A stretch of DNA of 64,000 nt from Longitalea luteola (GTDB lineage: Bacteria; Bacteroidota; Bacteroidia; Chitinophagales; Chitinophagaceae). The translations under genes were made by a program, and so were the position numbers. A model generated the notes under the pieces. The model was given only the letters and a program-made list of their open reading frames with translations. It did not search any database and had not been told where the DNA came from. This document shows, piece by piece, positions 698 to 61,754 of this stretch (position 1 is its first letter; each line of letters begins with the position of its first letter). The stretch is from NCBI RefSeq assembly GCF_017356035.1, contig NZ_JAFIQX010000014.1, positions 62,001 to 126,000 on the forward strand. Direction: 5' to 3'.

Positions 698-2023
698 ATG
701 AAAATCATGAAGTTTGGCGGCACCTCGGTAGGCAAACCCGATCGGATGCACCAGGTAGCGCAACTGATAACCAAAGACAACAGTGAGCCACGTATTGTAG
801 TATTGAGCGCATTAAGCGGTACAACCAATGCACTGGTAGCTATCGGCGAAGCCATGGCAGCCGGCAATCGTGACCAGGCCAAAGAACTGATCGACAAGTT
901 AGAAGCCCATTACCAGTCTTTCATCAAGGAACTGGTTAAGACCGATAAGGCATATGCCAAGGCGAAGAGCATTGTATCTGAACATTTCGAATTCCTGAAC
1001 ATCATATTGAAGATATCATTCAGCGAAGCCCTTAGCAAAGATATTCTCGCGCAGGGAGAGTTGCTGTCTACCAAATTATTCAGCGTTTACCTCGATGAAA
1101 AAGGCATAGATCATATGCTGCTGCCGGCGCTTGAATTCATGACCATCGACGCACAGGATGAACCGCAGCTGAGCACCATCAAGGTGAAGCTGGGCCGCAT
1201 CCTGCAGGAAAACAGCAAAAAACAATTGTTCATTACACAAGGCTATATCTGTCGCAATGCGCGTGGCGAGGTTGATAACCTGAAACGTGGGGGCAGTGAC
1301 TATACGGCTTCACTGATAGCTGCAGCAGTGAATGGTTCAGTTTGCGAGATCTGGACCGACATCGACGGCATGCACAACAACGATCCCCGTATCGTTAAAA
1401 AAACAGTGCCTGTTGAACAGTTGAGCTTTGAAGAAGCAGCCGAGCTGGCTTATTTTGGCGCCAAGATCTTACACCCTACCTGTATCTGGCCTGCGCAGCA
1501 ACAAAAGGTTCCGGTAAAACTGCTGAACACCATGCAGCCTGAAGCGCTGGGAACTACCATTACCCAGGAAGCCGGTTCTGTTGGCGTGAAAGCCGTAGCG
1601 GCCAAAGACGGTATCATCATTGTGAATATCAAGAGCAGCCGCATGCTGTTGGCATATGGTTTCCTCAGAAAGATCTTTGAGGTGTTTGAAAAATACCGTA
1701 CGTCTATCGATATGATCACTACTTCTGAAGTAGCGGTATCGGTAACTATCGATCATGGCGCTAACTTAACTTCCATCGTAAAAGAACTGGAACCATTCGG
1801 CACCATCACTACAGAAGACAATCACACCATCATTTCTGTAGTTGGTAATGAAATTGCACAGACGCAGGATATCCTGAGCAAATTGTTTGAAGCCTTAAAA
1901 CCAATACCAGTGCGTATGGTAAGTTATGGCGGCAGCAAACACAACGTGTCAATGCTCGTTCCTTCTTCTTACAAGACCCAAACCCTGCAACTGCTGAATA
2001 AAGGGTTGTTTGGGCTGGAATAG
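698..2023 (+). CDS. lysC: Aspartate kinase (aspartokinase)
   Basis: Phosphorylates L-aspartate to 4-phospho-L-aspartate, the first step toward lysine/diaminopimelate, threonine and methionine. The 441-aa protein opens with MKIMKFGGTSVG, the conserved nucleotide-binding start of the family, and carries KRGGSDYTASL near residue 200 and the IWTDIDGM/NNDPRIV substrate loop just after. The C-terminal ~150 residues hold the tandem ACT regulatory region (IVNIKSSRM; ISVVGNEIA). Length fits monofunctional LysC-type enzymes, and no homoserine dehydrogenase domain follows. The start at 698 was preferred over an upstream ATG at 659 because family alignment begins there and a promoter box lies between. 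Feedback inhibition by an end-product amino acid is likely from the ACT domains; which one is unknown. Confidence 0.93.
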   Translation: MKIMKFGGTSVGKPDRMHQVAQLITKDNSEPRIVVLSALSGTTNALVAIGEAMAAGNRDQAKELIDKLEAHYQSFIKELVKTDKAYAKAKSIVSEHFEFLNIILKISFSEALSKDILAQGELLSTKLFSVYLDEKGIDHMLLPALEFMTIDAQDEPQLSTIKVKLGRILQENSKKQLFITQGYICRNARGEVDNLKRGGSDYTASLIAAAVNGSVCEIWTDIDGMHNNDPRIVKKTVPVEQLSFEEAAELAYFGAKILHPTCIWPAQQQKVPVKLLNTMQPEALGTTITQEAGSVGVKAVAAKDGIIIVNIKSSRMLLAYGFLRKIFEVFEKYRTSIDMITTSEVAVSVTIDHGANLTSIVKELEPFGTITTEDNHTIISVVGNEIAQTQDILSKLFEALKPIPVRMVSYGGSKHNVSMLVPSSYKTQTLQLLNKGLFGLE

Positions 2024-2025
2024 TC

Positions 2026-2060
2026 TATGGTGAATGGTCAATGGTAAATGGTCAATCGAC
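2026..2060. repeat. 7-bp period repeat (atggtNa words)
   Basis: Consecutive words atggtga, atggtca, atggtaa and atggtca follow the aspartokinase stop. The same word family recurs near 44735, 59970 and 61625 and, reverse-complemented, inside the helicase gene at 33590-33625. Confidence 0.6.
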
Positions 2061-10114: not shown

Positions 10115-11854
10115 CTATATCCCTTTAGGAATGGATGCTATCAATTGTCTGGTGTACTCTTTCTGTGGATGAAAATATATCTGCTCTGCATCCCCTATCT
10201 CTTCTATTCTCCCTTTGTTCATCACCATAATGCGGTCGCTGATATAGCGTACGACCGACAGATCGTGGGAAATAAAAACAATGGTAAAACCCATTTCTGC
10301 CTTCAGGTCGTTCAAGAGGTTTAACACCTGCGCCTGCACACTTACATCCAGCGCCGACACCGATTCATCACACACAATGAACTCAGGATTCAGCGCCAAT
10401 GCCCGGGCAATGACGATCCGCTGCCGTTGTCCACCCGAAAACTCATGCGGATACCGGTTAAAATGTTCCGGTTTCAGATTTACTTTTTCCAGCAGTTCCA
10501 TGACCCGGTCCTTCCTTCCCACGCTGGTGGAAACAATATTATGCACTTTCAGCGGCTCTGCAATAGCCGCCCCGATAGTAAGCCTTGGATTAAGTGAAGA
10601 ATAAGGGTCCTGGAAAATGATCTGGATATCCTTACGCATCGACTTCATGCTTCGCGCATCAATTGCCGACAGGTCAGTGCCATCATAATATATCGAACCG
10701 GATGTGGGCGGTATCAGTCCCAGCAGGGTTCTGCCAAGTGTTGTTTTACCACAGCCCGACTCGCCAACCAGTCCAAGCGTTTCGCCTTTATAAATTTCAA
10801 ACCCGATATTATCAACCGCCTTTACATATTCTACCGGCTTGCCCAACAGGTTCTTCTTTGAAGGGAACCATACATTCAGGCGGCTTACCTTGATAAACGG
10901 CCGTTTTGCAGTCACCGCTTCCTGTTCATATACAACAGGTGGTGGTGGTGCAAGCTGTGCATAACGGCTTAGTTCAAACGGACGATCATGCTCCAGGAAA
11001 TCGCTCACAATTGGCAGGCGTTCTCCCTTCGGATGCAGTACCGGTCTGCAGGCCAGCAGGCCTTTGGTATAAGGGTGTTGCGGGTTACTGAAAATGGCCT
11101 GTACCGAACCCGACTCCACTATTTCACCCAGGTACATCACAATGGCCCGGTCGGCCACTTCGGCCACCACACCCAGATCGTGGGTAATAAAGATCACACC
11201 CATTTGCCTCGTTTGCTGCAATTCTTTGATCAGTTGCAGAATGGTCTTTTGCACGGTGACATCCAAAGCGGTGGTTGGCTCATCACAGATCAGCAAGTCG
11301 GGTGCACAGCTCATTGCCATCGCGATCATTACCCGTTGTTTTTGTCCACCACTTAACTGGTGTGGATAACGCCGGAACAATTGCTCAGGATTCGGCAGCC
11401 GCACCTGCCTGAAGAGATCGATCGTTTTTTGCTTTGCTTCCTGTTTACCGATCTTCAGATGAAGGCGCAACGCTTCCTGCACCTGGTGACCGCAGGTAAA
11501 AACCGGGTTCAGCGAGGTCATGGGTTCCTGGAAGATCATCGCGATCTGGTTACCACGAATGTCGCGCAACTGCTCCGGTGTTTGCGTTAATAAATTCACG
11601 GTATTCTGCCCATCGGCCGAGAATAAAATGTCACCATGAGTATACCTGGCCGGTGGTTTGGGCAATAACTGCAAAATGGATAATGAAGTAACCGACTTAC
11701 CCGAGCCTGACTCTCCTACGATGGCGACGATCTCGCCACGACTTACCCTAAACGAAATATCCTTTACAGCAGTGGTGGTCCCGATCTCTGTAACAAAATC
11801 AACCTGCAGGTTATTTATTTGTAGTAAAGGCGCTGGCATTGTTGTGGTGGCCAT
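10115..11854 (-). CDS. Peptide/oligopeptide ABC transporter ATP-binding protein with two fused ATPase domains
   Basis: 579 aa with two complete ABC domains, like YejF/GsiA, equivalent to a DppD-DppF fusion. Domain 1 (~10-260) has Walker A GESGSGKS, signature LSGGQKQR and Walker B LLICDEP; domain 2 (~320-575) has GESGCGKT, FSGGQRQR and FIVCDES. Both end in the oligopeptide-transporter tail region (NPQHPYTKGLL; HPQKEYTRQLI), a feature of the OppD/F subfamily. It energises uptake of peptides or similar solutes through permeases not encoded here. The frame extends to a TTG at 11872; the ATG at 11854 (MATTTMPAPL) is a better start. It is convergent with the DUF1415 gene, 36 bp apart. Orphan ATPase genes of this type are common in Bacteroidota. 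Confidence 0.9.
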   Translation of the reverse strand: MATTTMPAPLLQINNLQVDFVTEIGTTTAVKDISFRVSRGEIVAIVGESGSGKSVTSLSILQLLPKPPARYTHGDILFSADGQNTVNLLTQTPEQLRDIRGNQIAMIFQEPMTSLNPVFTCGHQVQEALRLHLKIGKQEAKQKTIDLFRQVRLPNPEQLFRRYPHQLSGGQKQRVMIAMAMSCAPDLLICDEPTTALDVTVQKTILQLIKELQQTRQMGVIFITHDLGVVAEVADRAIVMYLGEIVESGSVQAIFSNPQHPYTKGLLACRPVLHPKGERLPIVSDFLEHDRPFELSRYAQLAPPPPVVYEQEAVTAKRPFIKVSRLNVWFPSKKNLLGKPVEYVKAVDNIGFEIYKGETLGLVGESGCGKTTLGRTLLGLIPPTSGSIYYDGTDLSAIDARSMKSMRKDIQIIFQDPYSSLNPRLTIGAAIAEPLKVHNIVSTSVGRKDRVMELLEKVNLKPEHFNRYPHEFSGGQRQRIVIARALALNPEFIVCDESVSALDVSVQAQVLNLLNDLKAEMGFTIVFISHDLSVVRYISDRIMVMNKGRIEEIGDAEQIYFHPQKEYTRQLIASIPKGI

Positions 11855-26029: not shown

Positions 26030-26062
26030 ATGATGTGATGATGTGATAATGCAATACAGGCA

Positions 26063-26388
26063 GGAACGCCGGAATGGAAAGAATTATCACATTATCGAAT
26101 TATCAAATTATCACATTATCACATAATGCCAGATAATGATGATATGATAATTTAATACCACTGCTGTGGATGCTTTGGCGCGACCTTCGCGCTTGTTGGA
26201 ACGCCGGAATGGAAAGAATTATCACATTATCGAATTATCAAATTATCACATAATGCTAGATAATGATGACATGATAATTTAATACATGCTGCTGTGGATG
26301 CTTTGGCGCGGCCTTCGCGCTTGTAGGAACGCTGGTATGGAAAGAATTATCACATTATCGAATTATCACATTATCAAATTATCACATT
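26063..26388. repeat. ~130-bp direct tandem repeat with internal 8-bp words
   Basis: Three copies of a unit starting ggaacgc[ct]gg begin at 26063, 26198 and 26326 (spacing 135 and 128 bp; the last is partial). Each unit holds attatc octamers (acattatc, gaattatc, aaattatc). Copies 1 and 2 also hold a GGCGCG-acctt-CGCGC hairpin segment. The array runs directly into the ATG of the ligase gene, leaving no recognisable ribosome binding site. Nothing else is seen in this 360-bp gap. Confidence 0.8.
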
Positions 26389-27990
26389 ATGCTTGAGTTT
26401 GCGCAATTGTTATTCAAGTTAGGTACCACCACTAAAACCAACGATAAGCTCGAAGCATTAGCTTATTATTTTGCGCATGCCAATGAAAAAGACAAAGTAT
26501 GGGTGATCGCCCTGTTCAGCGGCCGGCGGCCGCGCCGCACCGTTAGCGGCACCCAACTGGCCGTATGGTGCACCGAACTTATTCATTTACCCATCTGGCT
26601 GTTCCAGGAATGTTATCATACCGTTGGCGACCTGTCTGAGACCATTGCCTTATTGATTCCGGAAACGAAGATATCCTCCTCTCCCACGGGCCAGCCGCTG
26701 CATTACTACGTCGAAAAGTTCCAGCAACTCGAAAAAGCAGGCGAGGCGGAAAAGAAAATGTTCATCCTGCAATCGTGGCTGGAATTGAGCAGCCGCGAGC
26801 GCTTTGTGTTCAACAAATTGCTCTCAGGCACGTTTCGTGTGGGCGTATCCCAAAAACTCATGGTGAATGCCCTCGCTCGAACGGTACAGCTGGAACCCAA
26901 TACCATTGCCCACCGCATCAGCGGCAACTGGGATCCCGCCACCACAAGCTTCTCGGCGCTGTTAAGTGAGCAGTCGACCCAGACAGATTTCTCCAAGCCC
27001 TACCCTTTCTACCTTGCCTATGCGCTGGAAGACCCGTTACCGGAGCTGGGCGAACCCGCCGACTGGCAGGCCGAATGGAAATGGGACGGCATCAGGGGTC
27101 AGATAATAAAAAGGAATGGCCAGTTATTTGTCTGGAGCCGCGGAGAAGACCTGATCACGGAAAAATTTCCTGAATTCAGCATTCTCCAAAGCAAATTGCC
27201 CAACGGCGTTGTAATAGATGGCGAGATCCTGCCTTACAAAGATGGACAGGTGCTTAACTTCAATATACTGCAAACCCGTATCGGCCGTAAGAATGTTACC
27301 AAAAAACATTTGCAGGATGCACCTGTTGGACTGTTCGCCTATGATCTGCTGGAATTAAATGGTGAAGACCTCCGGTCCATGGCGTTGAACGAACGCCGAG
27401 CAGCGCTTGAAGACCTGGTCACATCCCTGCAATTGCCTTTTTTACAATTATCCCCCGTGGTCACCTTCAGCAACTGGGATGAGTTAACCACCATCCGCGA
27501 GCAGAGCCGCAACCTGAATAGTGAGGGCCTGATGTTGAAACGAAGATCATCGGCTTATCAGGTAGGCCGCCGCCGGGGCGATTGGTGGAAATGGAAGATC
27601 GATCCCCTCACCATCGATGCGGTGATGGTGTATGCCCAGAAAGGAGCCGGGCGCCGCAGCAACCTGTATACCGACTACACCTTTGCGGTTAAAGACGGCG
27701 ACAAATTGGTTCCCTTCACAAAAGCGTATTCCGGATTGACCGACAAAGAATTTGCTCAGGTAGATGCCTTCGTGAAAAGGAATTCACTCGAAAAGTTTGG
27801 ACCTGTTCGTACGGTGAAACCAGAACTGGTATTTGAGATCGCCTTCGAAGGGATTGCCGCCAGCAACCGCCACAAATCAGGCGTAGCGCTCCGTTTTCCC
27901 CGCATCAGCCGCTGGCGAACCGATAAAACACCCAATGACATTAATACGTTGGATGATCTCAGGAAAATGCTGGAATTGTATGGAAAATGA
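26389..27990 (+). CDS. ATP-dependent DNA ligase (ligase-exonuclease-helicase cluster type)
   Basis: 533 aa. Residues ~1-180 form the DNA ligase N-terminal domain; the nucleotidyltransferase core has motif I EWKWDGIRGQ with the adenylated Lys near residue 231, motif III-like FAYDLLELNGED, IDGEIL, motif IV EGLMLKRRSS and motif V GDWWKWK; an OB-fold follows. It seals nicks using ATP; the housekeeping ligase in bacteria is NAD-dependent LigA, so this is an accessory repair ligase. Family TIGR04120 members pair with the exonuclease upstream and the helicase at 31610. The ATG is formed by the last base pairs of the upstream octamer array (cacattATG), which is unusual. Confidence 0.92.
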   Translation: MLEFAQLLFKLGTTTKTNDKLEALAYYFAHANEKDKVWVIALFSGRRPRRTVSGTQLAVWCTELIHLPIWLFQECYHTVGDLSETIALLIPETKISSSPTGQPLHYYVEKFQQLEKAGEAEKKMFILQSWLELSSRERFVFNKLLSGTFRVGVSQKLMVNALARTVQLEPNTIAHRISGNWDPATTSFSALLSEQSTQTDFSKPYPFYLAYALEDPLPELGEPADWQAEWKWDGIRGQIIKRNGQLFVWSRGEDLITEKFPEFSILQSKLPNGVVIDGEILPYKDGQVLNFNILQTRIGRKNVTKKHLQDAPVGLFAYDLLELNGEDLRSMALNERRAALEDLVTSLQLPFLQLSPVVTFSNWDELTTIREQSRNLNSEGLMLKRRSSAYQVGRRRGDWWKWKIDPLTIDAVMVYAQKGAGRRSNLYTDYTFAVKDGDKLVPFTKAYSGLTDKEFAQVDAFVKRNSLEKFGPVRTVKPELVFEIAFEGIAASNRHKSGVALRFPRISRWRTDKTPNDINTLDDLRKMLELYGK

Positions 27991-31609: not shown

Positions 31610-34339
31610 ATGAGGCTTCAAACTACTACCGGATATAAGATCATTGTTGACTGGCTGGCAAACAAAAGCCTCCATCCTTTTACATTCCAGGAAGAAACCT
31701 GGCAGCACATTATTAATGGTAAAAGCGGACTGGTAAATGCCCCGACGGGCTGCGGCAAAACATTTTCAGTTTTTTTAGGGGCGCTCATCGATTTCATCAA
31801 CCACCATCCCGATAACTGGAAGACCAAAGCCGGTAACGGATTGCAGTTGTTATGGATCACCCCGTTACGGGCGCTGGCTAAAGATATCGGCCGGGCCATG
31901 GAAGAGGTAATCAATGAATTGGGCATGGAATGGAAGGTGGGCATCCGCAACGGCGATACCGATATAAACGAAAGGCAGCGACAAAAACGCCGGATGCCCG
32001 AAGTGTTGATCATCACTCCGGAAAGCCTGCACCTGCTGCTGGCACAAAAAGGCTATGCGGCCGTTTTTGAAAGCCTTAAGATCCTGGCAGTGGACGAATG
32101 GCATGAGCTCATCGGTTCCAAAAGAGGCGTTCAGGTGGAACTGGCCGTGTCGAGGTTGGTAGGTTTGCGCAAGCCTATTGACAATACACAAGTTGCAACA
32201 GAGCGTAAAGGGGAAGACATCGATTGCGAATTGCCTGCTGCCTATTGTCCTTTGAGGGTTTGGGGTATTTCGGCTACCATCGGAAATCTCGATCAGGCCA
32301 AAGAAGTACTACTCTCACCTATATTAACTTTCTCCTCCTCCACCGGGGGAGGCCTGGAGAGGGCCTCCGCCACAGTGAAAGCCAATATTCGCAAGGACGT
32401 TGTTATAGAATCGATCATCCCCGACGAAATTGAAAAATATCCCTGGGCCGGGCATCTGGGACTTAAACTCATTCATAAAGTATTACCCATATTAAATACC
32501 AGCCGCACTACCCTTATCTTCATTAACACCCGGGGCATGAGCGAACAGTGGTACCAGGCTCTGCTCACGGCAGCCCCCGATCTTGCAGGCGCTATTGCCC
32601 TGCACCATGGCAGTATTGAACAGGAACTGCGCATCTGGGTAGAAGAAGCTTTGCACACCGGCCGACTGAAAGCAGTGGTGTGTACGGCCAGTCTTGACCT
32701 GGGTGTAGATTTTCGACCGGTGGAAACCGTTATACAGGTGGGATCGCCCAAAGGCGTTGCCCGTTTTTTGCAACGCGCAGGGCGAAGCGGCCATAGTCCG
32801 GGCGATGTAAGTAAGATCTATTTCCTGCCCACCCATTCGCTGGAACTGGTAGAAGCTGCCGCCCTGAAGAATGCCGTGGCGGAAACCTTTATTGAAAGCC
32901 GCGAGCCGATGCTGTTGTGTTTCGATGTGCTGATCCAGTACCTCAGCACCCTGGCAATTTCTGATGGGTTCCGGCCCGAGCAGCTTTTCGATGAGATCAG
33001 ATCAACCTATTGTTACCGCGACATAGCCCATGCAGAGTGGATGTCCATTTTGGAATTCATTACTACGGGCGGCAATGCATTGCAACAATATGATGAATAC
33101 AAAAAGGTAGAGATCATAGACGATGTATACCGCATCACCAGCCGGCGAATAGCCATGCGGCATCGCATGCATATCGGCACCATTGTAAGCGAGGCCATGA
33201 TGAAAGTGAAATTCGTAAGCGGTGGATTTATCGGGGTCATTGAAGAATGGTTCATCACGCGGCTGTCGCCCGGTGATGTGTTTACCCTGGCCGGCCGTAA
33301 CCTGGAGCTGGTGACCATTAAAGATATGACTGCCCTGGTTCGAAAATCAAATGCAAAAAAATCCATCGTGCCCAGTTGGCAGGGCGGCCGCATGCCGCTG
33401 AGCGCTAATCTGGGGAAGAAGCTGAGGGAGAAATTTGAGGAAGCGAGGAATCAGAAGTCGGAAGTCAGAAGTCTGAAGTCGGAAGCCGGAGCAGAGAAGC
33501 CGGAAGCCGGAGGTCAGCGGTCAGCAACCACAGTTAGAAAAAGCGGAAAGCCAAACAGCAGTAGCGAGAACCGGTTATCGGACACCCACTCAACATTCAC
33601 CATTCCCCATTCACCATCCGATATCGAGTTACAGGTATTGGAACCACTATTCCAACTACAACAAACGCTCTCCCACGTCCCCGGCGCCAATGAACTGCTG
33701 ATTGAACAGATCGAGACCCGGGATGGGTATCACCTCTTTGTATATCCGTTCGAAGGCAGGCTGGTGCACGAAGCCATGGCAGCCATCCTGGCCTGGCGCA
33801 TCAGCCGGATAACGCCCATCACCTTCTCCTTTGCCATGAATGATTACGGGTTCGAATTGCTCAGCGATCAACCCATTCCGGTAGACGACACCAATGTTTA
33901 TGAGTTGTTTACAGCAGATAATTTACTGGCTGATATTCAACGAAGTGCTAATGCAACAGAAATGGCAAAACGAAAGTTCCGCGATATAGCCGTCATTGGC
34001 GGACTGATTTTCCAGGGTTACCCTGGTGAGCAGAAAAAAGCACGGCATTTACAATCTTCCGCATCGTTATTATTCAATGTATTTTCAGAATATGAGCCCG
34101 GCAATTTACTATTACGGCAATCTTACCAGGAAGTGTTCGATCAGCAGATGGAAGAAGTACGACTTCGTAATATGTTGGAGCGCATACAGGCATCGAAGAT
34201 CATAATTACTTTTCCACAGCAGTTAACCCCATTCTGTTTTCCGATAAAAGTAGACAGTATGCGCGAAAACCTCACATCGGAAAAACTCGAAGACCGCGTA
34301 AAACGCATGCAGGCGCAGCTTAACCCCCCGGCTCCCTAA
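31610..34339 (+). CDS. Ligase-associated DEXH-box helicase (Lhr-type) with three repeat-derived insertions
   Basis: 909 aa. SF2 helicase motifs: Walker A APTGCGKT near residue 45, DEWHEL near 161, SAT in WGISATIGN near 220, and QRAGRSGH near 388, followed by the Lhr winged-helix and core domains (GGFIGVIEEWF; YPFEGRLVHEAMAAILAWR). Family TIGR04121; it is expected to unwind or translocate on DNA with the neighbouring exonuclease and ligase. Three segments look inserted relative to the family: ~residues 190-215 (DNA 32180-32260), ~240-260 (32335-32380) and ~611-672 (33439-33625). Their DNA resembles the window's intergenic repeats. The frame stays open throughout, so the protein is probably functional. 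The stop lies in another copy of the C5/G5 element. Confidence 0.9.
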   Translation: MRLQTTTGYKIIVDWLANKSLHPFTFQEETWQHIINGKSGLVNAPTGCGKTFSVFLGALIDFINHHPDNWKTKAGNGLQLLWITPLRALAKDIGRAMEEVINELGMEWKVGIRNGDTDINERQRQKRRMPEVLIITPESLHLLLAQKGYAAVFESLKILAVDEWHELIGSKRGVQVELAVSRLVGLRKPIDNTQVATERKGEDIDCELPAAYCPLRVWGISATIGNLDQAKEVLLSPILTFSSSTGGGLERASATVKANIRKDVVIESIIPDEIEKYPWAGHLGLKLIHKVLPILNTSRTTLIFINTRGMSEQWYQALLTAAPDLAGAIALHHGSIEQELRIWVEEALHTGRLKAVVCTASLDLGVDFRPVETVIQVGSPKGVARFLQRAGRSGHSPGDVSKIYFLPTHSLELVEAAALKNAVAETFIESREPMLLCFDVLIQYLSTLAISDGFRPEQLFDEIRSTYCYRDIAHAEWMSILEFITTGGNALQQYDEYKKVEIIDDVYRITSRRIAMRHRMHIGTIVSEAMMKVKFVSGGFIGVIEEWFITRLSPGDVFTLAGRNLELVTIKDMTALVRKSNAKKSIVPSWQGGRMPLSANLGKKLREKFEEARNQKSEVRSLKSEAGAEKPEAGGQRSATTVRKSGKPNSSSENRLSDTHSTFTIPHSPSDIELQVLEPLFQLQQTLSHVPGANELLIEQIETRDGYHLFVYPFEGRLVHEAMAAILAWRISRITPITFSFAMNDYGFELLSDQPIPVDDTNVYELFTADNLLADIQRSANATEMAKRKFRDIAVIGGLIFQGYPGEQKKARHLQSSASLLFNVFSEYEPGNLLLRQSYQEVFDQQMEEVRLRNMLERIQASKIIITFPQQLTPFCFPIKVDSMRENLTSEKLEDRVKRMQAQLNPPAP
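32338..32372. repeat. C5/G5-like palindromic element, in-frame inside the helicase gene
   Basis: ctcctccaccGGGGGAGGcctggagag resembles the intergenic C5/G5 elements and encodes a Ser-Ser-Thr-Gly-Gly-Gly-Leu-Glu segment absent from the expected family sequence. Confidence 0.5.
33439..33625. repeat. Heptad repeats inside the helicase coding region
   Basis: 7-mers of gaagtcg/gaagccg type run 33445-33515, then attcaccattcccc words at 33590-33622. These match intergenic families at 45480-45540 and, in reverse complement, 2026, 44735 and 61625. The translation is a Lys/Ser/Glu-rich linker between helicase domains. Confidence 0.75.
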
Positions 34340-34346
34340 AGGGAGA
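34324..34346. repeat. C5/G5 palindromic element, copy at the helicase 3' end
   Basis: cccccgg-CTCCCtaaaGGGAG spans the helicase stop codon. It could also act as a weak terminator, but lacks a T tract. Confidence 0.5.
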
Positions 34347-34441
34347 GCAGTTTCCAGTTTGCAGTTTTTACAATTTTACTATCTGCGAGTTTATCCACAT
34401 TCACTCCCAAATAGAGAAAGCTCAGCAAGTTTCGGCGACCA

Positions 34442-36058: not shown

Positions 36059-36245
36059 ATCTCGTACATGTCCCGTATATGTTCCGTACATGTCTCGTAT
36101 ATAAGCCGTCCCTTTAAAGGTACGGGACATGTACGAGAAACTAATGAAAGACCTACCTGACAATAAGGAGTCATTACAGGCCCAGATACGAATCAGATAC
36201 GAATCAGATACGAATCAAACACGGATCAGATACGGCCCAGGTACG
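36059..36245. repeat. Inverted repeat plus 11-bp tandem repeat upstream of the aminotransferase gene
   Basis: CTCGTACATGTCCCGTA (36061-36077) is exactly complementary to 36121-36137, and a third related copy lies at 36083-36101. Further on, cagatacgaat (11 bp) is repeated 3-5 times from 36184 to 36240. The area extends the downstream ORF artificially to 36129. Apart from this, the gap 35932-36302 shows no gene. Confidence 0.7.
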
Positions 36246-44732: not shown

Positions 44733-44860
44733 GTATGGTGAATGGTTAATGGTGAGTGGTTCTGCAACAATTAAATTATTCAGCCTTTTGTATTAGCGTT
44801 AAGCGTTCAGCGTTTGGCATCCCTGCGCGAAGCTTCAGCAAAGCAAGGCGTTCAGCATCA
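44733..44860. repeat. Two short heptad arrays (atggtga; gcgttca words)
   Basis: atggtga/atggtta words at 44733-44760 and gcgttaa/gcgttca words at 44798-44850 separate copy 2 from folE. Confidence 0.55.
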
Positions 44861-45475: not shown

Positions 45476-45477
45476 CG

Positions 45478-45667
45478 AAGACGGAAATCGGAAGTCGGAA
45501 AACCGAAGTCCGCAATCGGAAGTCGGAAGCCGGAAATCGGAGCGGTTCAAAGTTCTTATCTCACGTCTGATTGCATACTTCTGAAGTTGAACCTTTGAGT
45601 TACGACCTCAGACTTCTGACCTCAGACTTCTGACCTCAGATTTCAGACCTCAGACTTCTGACTTCTT
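45478..45667. repeat. Two heptad arrays (cggaagt and acttctg/acctcag words)
   Basis: cggaagt/cggaaat words at 45478-45540, a less regular middle, then acttctg/acctcag at 45600-45667. The two are related by complementarity. No gene or terminator hairpin is seen in this gap before fabD. Confidence 0.75.
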
Positions 45668-50164: not shown

Positions 50165-50490
50165 GGAAAAGCTGAACGCTAAACGCTTAACGCAGAACGC
50201 TCAAGGCAGAAGGCACAAAGGCAACGAGGCATAAAGGTACAAAGCCCGCAAACGATGCTCTAAAAGAAAGGTGAATCTTCTGCACTCCGCAGAAAGATCC
50301 ACCCTTACAATAAGCTTAAAGCGCCCTGCATAAACAGGCAGTTAGAAATAAATTTATCAATTACGCTCACGTCTGCATAAATGCAGGCGGTTCATTCGAT
50401 AGTGAGATTGAAATGGAAGCATTAGCACATTGGCAAATTAGCACATTAGCTAATTGCATCATCACATCATCACATTAGCCGATTATCACA
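50165..50490. other. Intergenic region with heptad/octad repeats and a putative fabH terminator
   Basis: acgctta/acgctca words at 50169-50215; attagc octamers at 50420-50490. Between them, 50270-50303 holds a hairpin (GGTGaATCTTcTGC with GCAGAAAGATccACC) followed on the minus strand by a T-rich stretch, placed to terminate fabH, ~190 nt past its stop. No gene seen in 50149-50495. Confidence 0.55.
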
Positions 50491-59962: not shown

Positions 59963-60075
59963 TGGGTAGTGGATGGAGTGGATGGTGAATCGTCAATCGT
60001 CAATCGTGAGTTACTCGCATATTGTGACTTCCGGCTTCGGACTTCTGACCTCCGACTTCCGACTTCCTGCTTCTG
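59963..60075. repeat. Heptad arrays (gaatggt/gtcaatc; gacttcc/gacttct words)
   Basis: atggtgaatcgtcaatc-type words then gacttcc/gacttct/gacctcc words in strict 7-bp register. Confidence 0.7.
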
Positions 60076-61620: not shown

Positions 61621-61754
61621 ATTGTGAGTGGTGAATGGTGAATGGTGAGTGGTGAGTAGCTCGCTAATTATAAAGATCCGAACTTGCGCCGCTAAATTTT
61701 GCCAACTGTGAACTATGAACTGTGAACTATGAACTGTAAACTGTAAACTGTGAA
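61621..61754. repeat. Heptad arrays (gaatggt/gagtggt; tgaacta/tgaactg words)
   Basis: gtgaatggtgaatggtgagt words at 61625-61655 and tgaactg/tgaacta/taaactg words at 61700-61754 abut the 3' end of the T9SS type B gene. Confidence 0.75.

Follow-up and report, generated by a model that had tools for sequence, protein, structure and literature searches.

Among long simple repeats, heptanucleotides form the most frequent category in the majority of the genomes surveyed, and polymerase slippage has been proposed as their source (Mrazek et al. 2007, via PMC4679880). Cyanobacterial STRR sequences usually consist of 7-nt units and are hairpin-capable (PMC2670836), and the gene for RNase P RNA has been reported to contain such heptanucleotides (Vioque 1997, cited in PMC4748335 and PMC2858038). 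TAACTGA heptamers were described in Beggiatoaceae, cyanobacteria and five Bacteroidetes, with a mechanism of spread that was reported as not evident (MacGregor 2015, PMC4679880). The GGGAATC-type heptads of Xanthomonas and Nostoc are G-rich and quadruplex-forming (PMC4692102). Rickettsia palindromic elements, approximately 150 bp long and belonging to ten families, are inserted in frame in ORFs (PMC10969869). The repeats in the ORFs of Borgs are perfect, and their unit lengths are all divisible by three (PMC9879509).

The window analysed here, a stretch of 64,000 nt from Longitalea luteola, contained a conserved helicase gene with heptad DNA in frame. As in the cyanobacterial STRR case, 7-nt units lie inside a functional gene, but the host there is an RNA gene, whereas here protein genes are most likely read through in frame. 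TAACTGA arrays are similar in that they occur in gaps and in some ORFs, are mixed with other heptamers in places and form long arrays in a number of Bacteroidetes and cyanobacteria (PMC4679880). That work, however, concerned one word, its ORF arrays were mostly terminal or in hypothetical ORFs, and a loop occupied recurrently in orthologues is not described for TAACTGA in the part of the report used here (PMC4679880). With the Rickettsia palindromic elements, the inserts share the in-frame placement of repeat DNA in unrelated conserved genes; they differ in lacking a family consensus and size, being tandem 7-nt words that vary in length and in wording. For Borgs, too, one process was inferred for genic and intergenic repeats, and disordered protein regions result (PMC9879509), but the unit here is 7 nt, which is not divisible by three, and the repeats are imperfect. 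GGGAATC-type heptads are likewise dispersed, mostly non-coding and under-represented between divergent ORFs (PMC4692102), whereas here many word families occur.

Both heptad repeats and repeats inserted in frame have precedents, and the inserts are heptads of a known sort that act within genes as in-frame insertion elements do. What looks new is the recurrence of 7-nt arrays in loops of housekeeping genes that are present in single copy. Among the open-licence papers retrieved by full-text searches, no title or opening part of an abstract mentioned coding heptads in Chitinophagaceae or 7-nt arrays lying in the loops of orthologous housekeeping proteins. A 7-nt unit is expected to be barred from genes, since each step breaks the frame, yet arrays were found mid-gene in single-copy genes such as valS. 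Such arrays constrain how heptads spread, because frameshifted intermediates of single-copy genes should not survive. They also amount to recurrent natural experiments that show which protein loops can accept an arbitrary sequence, and they provide a marked target for watching repeat turnover between strains.

Heptad loops in the ligase-associated helicase

The ORF at 31610-34339 encoded 909 aa and scored 1061 bits against TIGR04121, above the curated cut-off of 850, which places it in this family. Its nearest solved sequences were 5V9X and 7LHL, both ATP-dependent DNA helicases, which we take to be Lhr proteins; a Pfam WH_Lhr domain agreed with the Lhr-type identity. The closest named helicase gene was that of Longitalea arenae, followed by those of Niastella species. 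The TIGR04121 profile aligned as two pieces (3-570 and 570-802) meeting at profile position 570, and approximately 54 residues (aa 618-671) lay outside the match. The features of the gene and the corresponding arrays in the gaps of the window were:

31610-34339, plus strand: ligase-associated DEXH helicase (TIGR04121, Lhr-type), carrying the inserts; from the profile match
32174-32254, plus strand: loop of site 1 (aa 189-215), preceding RVWGISAT; ATTGCCN-like heptads, decayed (lag-7 z > 3)
32324-32374, plus strand: loop of site 2; length variable, not built of heptads in the family
33449-33628, plus strand: site 3 linker, 60 codons, aa 614-673, from REKFEEAR to LQVLEPLF
33447-33531, plus strand: GAAGYCN heptad block, first half of the site 3 linker; from TRF and pattern scan
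33586-33617, plus strand: ATTCACC heptad block, last part of the site 3 linker; from TRF and pattern scan
2018-2057, minus strand: ATTGACC/ATTCACC-word array; from TRF and pattern scan
45477-45665, unstranded: GAAGTCG heptads forward, then inverted GACCTCAGACTTCT heptads; from TRF and pattern scan
60026-60073, minus strand: GAAGTCN-word array; from TRF and pattern scan
61623-61658, minus strand: ATTCACC-word array; from TRF and pattern scan

Within the site 3 linker, TRF reported period 7 at 33454-33511 (GAAGTCG/GAAGCCG) and 33586-33617 (CCATTCA). The earlier note on this DNA had read the stretch as heptad words of the gap families, lying in frame as a linker between conserved helicase segments, and both the split of the profile and the pattern scans against shuffled sequences bore this out. 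With at most one mismatch, GAAGYCNGAAGYC matched the window 22 times (0.88 expected; 0 of 100 shuffles reached 22), with six matches in the linker, nine at 45484-45665, six at 60026-60073 and one at 10641. The pattern CATTCACCATTCACC, with at most three mismatches, matched 18 times (2.05 expected; 0 of 100 shuffles reached 18), at places that included 33587-33615, 2022-2057, 44737-44758 and 61623-61658. GAAGYCN and ATTCACC words are common to the linker and nearby gaps, as had been proposed, and the linker is gap-type repeat DNA inside a translated gene. Two features had been missed: the inversion within the array at 45477-45665, and site 1, which is a second heptad loop of the helicase and more decayed than site 3. 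In a predicted structure, aa 190-211 and aa 627-668, in the two heptad loops, had pLDDT values below 50; since the mean pLDDT of the model was 66.7 and further stretches were low, only the loop positions were taken from it.

Other repeat-like sequences were observed in the helicase genes. At site 2 (32324-32374 in the window), several genus and family loci carried non-heptad, repeat-like DNA coding for SPSTGGGRGE-type peptides. The site 1 loop of the helicase at locus L043 encoded the peptide VILSLSKDAPCHPEPAEG, resembling a translated palindromic repeat. The stop codon of the window gene lay inside a palindromic repeat-like stretch (34322-34350, CCCCCCGGCTCCCTAAAGGGAG), and the last residues of the helicase (NPPAP) differed among species.

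Recurrence in orthologues and other conserved genes

Helicase matches at E <= 1e-60 were present in 139 of the 195 genomes of the family sample. According to the earlier note, a similar linker in most orthologues would have spoken against an insertion. This was not found: 26 of the 30 best-scoring family members had 23-30 aa at this position versus 76 in the window gene, 16 anchor residues included in each case. Counted between anchors, the loops of the 30 best-scoring members were short: 2-18 residues for site 1, 7-29 for site 3. An alignment with close relatives had been suggested, with the same position and the same words as the expectation. The position held, all ten genus genomes having a helicase with a linker of 31-79 codons between the anchors of site 3, but the words differed.

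Periodicity was analysed in 116 non-redundant family helicases (142 loci minus L002 and L003, giving 140, minus 24 duplicates). These are not a random sample of the family: 30 loci (L013-L042) were its best-scoring members, 80 came from the relatives of the window gene, as the best of 392, and 20 (L043-L062) were chosen mainly for split matches or long frames. Heptad DNA was found at site 1 in 29 and at site 3 in 19 of the 116 helicases. When linkers of at least 20 aa were pooled, self-matching at lags 7, 14 and 21 was 0.49, 0.46 and 0.43 for site 1 (37 of 116 helicases) and 0.43, 0.39 and 0.35 for site 3 (28 of 116), with 0.28 expected. In the core coding DNA of the same helicases all lags were at or below 0.31, and the 7-nt peak was absent from the site 2 linkers of the family helicase set. 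Tested singly, linkers of at least 14 aa had a lag-7 z > 3 in 29 of 50 cases at site 1, 19 of 58 at site 3 and 1 of 22 at site 2, compared with 6 of 812 core pieces; the single-linker tests, both for periodicity and for the ranking of own words, covered linkers of 42 nt or more. Lag-7 matches in heptad-positive linkers were independent of codon position (0.53, 0.57 and 0.54 for the three positions), and, as far as these sequence statistics go, the 7-nt period is a property of the DNA.

Of 48 heptad linkers, 46 had stops in another forward frame. When the window gene was compared with seven genus mates, the flanks on both sides of the linker differed mainly at third codon positions, and substitutions in the linker were about equally distributed over the three positions. 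By this pattern, both flanks are evidently under purifying selection and the linker is apparently free to change. Given the codon-position pattern of flanks and linker and the stops in the other frames, the linker is most likely read through in translation, its sequence being constrained only by frame, stops and position. An untranslated gap or a pseudogene is unlikely given the codon-position pattern on both flanks. On a quick ML tree with variable sites excluded, the heptad state changed at least 18 times at site 1 and at least nine times at site 3; these counts are blind to gain versus loss, and the differing words favour repeated gain or overwriting.

The suggestion in the earlier note that repeats can enter coding DNA applied more widely than had been claimed, as similar DNA occurred in the second helicase loop and in other conserved genes. 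The loci of the 80 relatives span 1.42 Mb and include 689 ORFs that are 250 aa or longer; the helicase accounted for 49 arrays, and the remaining ORFs of this size for 11. Of the latter, six were more than 60 aa from both ends: three in LpxB and one each in GMP synthase, a flavoprotein (TIGR00275) and an unassigned ORF. The LpxB of locus L102, the flavoprotein and GMP synthase were identified by family match, and the other two LpxB via shared motifs; for two of the three LpxB arrays the gain in length was none or 3 aa. The L. luteola genome had 44 matches to GAAGYCNx3 at 28 places. Among the 23 places examined, six were mid-gene, each in a conserved ORF (helicase, ValS, DnaX, ABC-F ATPase, TIGR00275 flavoprotein and GltX), and two others were right at the 5' end of a long ORF. 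The best non-self match of the window linker in its own genome was the ABC-F insert, followed by the flavoprotein insert. No mid-gene arrays were seen among the coding-class arrays in 400 kb of one L. luteola contig. Mid-gene arrays are uncommon, yet certain loops are hit repeatedly. The helicase as the sole target was ruled out by the arrays in LpxB, ValS, DnaX, ABC-F, TIGR00275 and GMP synthase.

The ValS loop of L. luteola had 32 residues, encoded by forward GAAGYCN and inverted GACTTCN heptads, and exceeded that of the genus mate G001 by 14 aa (42 nt, six heptads). In G002 and G004 this loop had 22 residues with ACAAACN words, and in six other genus genomes it had 17-18 residues without 7-periodicity; valS was not found in G006, a genome that is 61% complete. 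Lag 3 (0.49 and 0.51) nearly equalled lag 7 (0.49 and 0.56) in the loops of G002 and G004, whose arrays may represent one common ancestral array. The TIGR00275 flavoprotein loop was expanded with 7-periodicity in L. luteola, G002 and G009, and was longer in G001 without clear periodicity; in uninserted relatives it was already word-like (G004: GTAAAAAGTTTGAAGTATGAAG). GltX had no change in length, with G002 being similar, and is an ambiguous candidate for a heptad insert. Since the uninserted gene was already word-like for both TIGR00275 and GltX, local expansion or chance is possible in these two cases.

Origin of the inserts

The words of the inserts were compared with those of the host genomes. 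The GAAGYCN part of the window linker had at least 38 non-self matches at E <= 1e-3 in its own genome versus 0-7 in each of nine genus mates (best 40 candidates per genome). GAAGTCNx3 was counted 23 times in L. luteola, 15 times in G005 (one perfect array), once in G007 and not at all in seven other genomes; the reversed control, CTGAAGN, was itself a heptad family (24 matches in L. luteola, 15 in G005) and is therefore not neutral. Counts of ACAAACNx3 were 145 in G002, 146 in G004, 70 in G001, 63 in L. luteola and 0-18 in the rest, and the two richest genomes were exactly those with ACAAACN words in the ValS loop. When 11-mers were compared in 300-kb samples of seven of the ten genus genomes, 4 of 11 linkers ranked their own genome first; mean sharing was 0.355 (own) vs 0.279 (others) for linkers and 0.247 vs 0.256 for core pieces. 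Among these seven genomes, the site 3 linker of the window ranked its own genome second and the site 1 linker sixth, and with 100-kb samples the site 3 linker ranked it last of nine. In 20-kb flanks, 17 of 31 linkers shared more than the others did on average. Sharing of words with the host genome is thus real but uneven, and in some cases the gene inserts are built of words favoured by the host genome itself. The 3' part of the window linker, including its ATTCACC end, matched the G004 linker (81% DNA identity, query 104-199). Because this part matches G004, while matches to the GAAGYCN part are most numerous in L. luteola, the site 3 insert is not a single recent event, which amends the earlier note.

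In our view the best explanation, with a probability of roughly 0.6, is that pre-formed repeat blocks were copied into genes, seeded by short homology, and that in-frame events in loops survived. Template switching or strand invasion, seeded by short homology while DNA is replicated or repaired, would copy repeat blocks to new places, some of the blocks being multi-family composites with a palindrome. A block that reached a gene would survive only if it was in frame, stop-free and within a loop, and the linker would later drift, sometimes being overwritten with the current words of the host. The same loops were hit in different lineages with different words. At locus L102, the helicase linker and the LpxB loop had heptads and 25 identical nt of a palindrome in common, and the best of the other 115 site 3 linkers shared 13 nt with this LpxB loop. 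The N. soli linker matched an array in its own genome (L263) over approximately 140 nt at 76%, and a second place in that genome over 70 nt at 87%, including the palindrome; an upstream reading frame runs into the L263 array. No donor-recipient pair was caught among the arrays compared.

Slippage in place is possible, although we consider it unlikely. A chance near-heptad would expand and be kept on a gain of 21 nt (three heptads, together or in quick succession), and the resemblance of words in different genes would reflect seeds that were alike or a polymerase with sequence preferences. The proposal of Mrazek et al. 2007 for heptads (via PMC4679880), the word-like state of the uninserted flavoprotein loop in G004 and the 42 nt, or six heptads, gained by the L. 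luteola ValS loop relative to G001 agree with slippage. Slippage alone, however, does not account for composites with palindromes that are common to several loci, for inverted heptads inside one insert, for differing word families joined in one linker or for word sets that differ between sister genomes, and the lengths of heptad-positive linkers followed no multiple-of-7 rule. The median length of exact lag-7 runs was 10 in coding and 7 in intergenic arrays; coding runs were thus no shorter, and no signature of selection against slippage was seen. In phase-variable contingency repeats, perfect tandem runs have on/off length variants within a population; the longest exact lag-7 run in the window linker was 9 nt, with one genome per species compared. 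The genes valS, gltX, dnaX and lpxB are essential in most bacteria. L. luteola had one valS above the cut-off and one gltX, so that single 7-nt additions would pass through frameshifts. The single-copy hosts, together with the shared blocks and inverted partners, favour block copying over slippage.

Palindromes beside some arrays and linkers, and the frequent inverted heptads, could also point to a discrete mobile element (REP/MITE/RPE-like) in the loops, with the heptads as its body. This is improbable, as the inserts were seen without constant length or consensus and 86 of 120 sampled arrays had no complementary partner of score >= 12 within 200 nt. We give hardly any credence to protein-level selection for a Lys/Ser/Glu-rich disordered linker with the DNA repeats as a by-product. 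The heptad loops do contain the stretches with pLDDT < 50, but lags 7 and 14 exceeded lag 21 and lag 7 was independent of codon position; linker residues varied by species, and their substitutions were about equal at the three codon positions. The lag pattern and the codon-position-independent substitutions contradict a protein-driven linker. More speculatively, block copying could be part of a word-copying process in which a species-specific, changing heptad lexicon is written, seeded by homology, into any word-like sequence in gaps and housekeeping genes, a doubtful idea at present. If it were true, protein loops would be in concerted evolution with intergenic DNA.

Arrays across the genus

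In 1.264 Mb of L. luteola and eight genus genomes (the eight stretches of 100 kb each including the helicase), 229 lag-7 arrays were found, of which 131 were intergenic, 67 mixed and 31 in crude ORF calls. Many of the array-bearing short ORFs and N-terminal extensions in these calls are probably spurious. Lag 8 was the second commonest basic period (94 arrays), lag 11 had 19 arrays, and other lags up to 30, multiples of 7, 8 and 11 aside, had 1-20 arrays each. With their 7-nt period and many dispersed, mainly intergenic arrays, these sequences are heptanucleotide repeats of the STRR/LSSR type. Of the 333 intergenic arrays, 120 were sampled, and 34 of these had complementary heptads of score >= 12 no more than 200 nt away, vs 2 of 120 controls; by this measure, a minority of the arrays have putative STRR-type hairpin potential. 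Arrays numbered 1.25 per kb in convergent, 1.13 in tandem and 0.70 in divergent gaps (325 of the 333 placed), a bias too mild for simple terminators.

Arrays of other periods were also observed in the window. Period-8 arrays (ATTATCAC, ATTAGCAC) were located at 26062-26390, 2198-2249 and 50420-50455, one of them with a 128-nt repeated unit. Two 11-nt arrays lay close together at 36063-36109 and 36183-36234 (CGTACATGTCC, CAGATACGAAT), lag 11 being a third, rarer class. In L278, L291 and several crude ORFs, heptad arrays at the 5' end gave N-terminal peptides like TCNLQLVTCN, likely owing to wrong start codons. A Kdo-transferase-like ORF in G001 (L164:14574-15971), below the curated cut-offs, had a heptad array at approximately aa 41-80, directly before the family match. 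In N. soli, a perfect GAAGTCT array with 15 overlapping three-unit matches was found at G005:C2:122676-122793; arrays elsewhere were imperfect.
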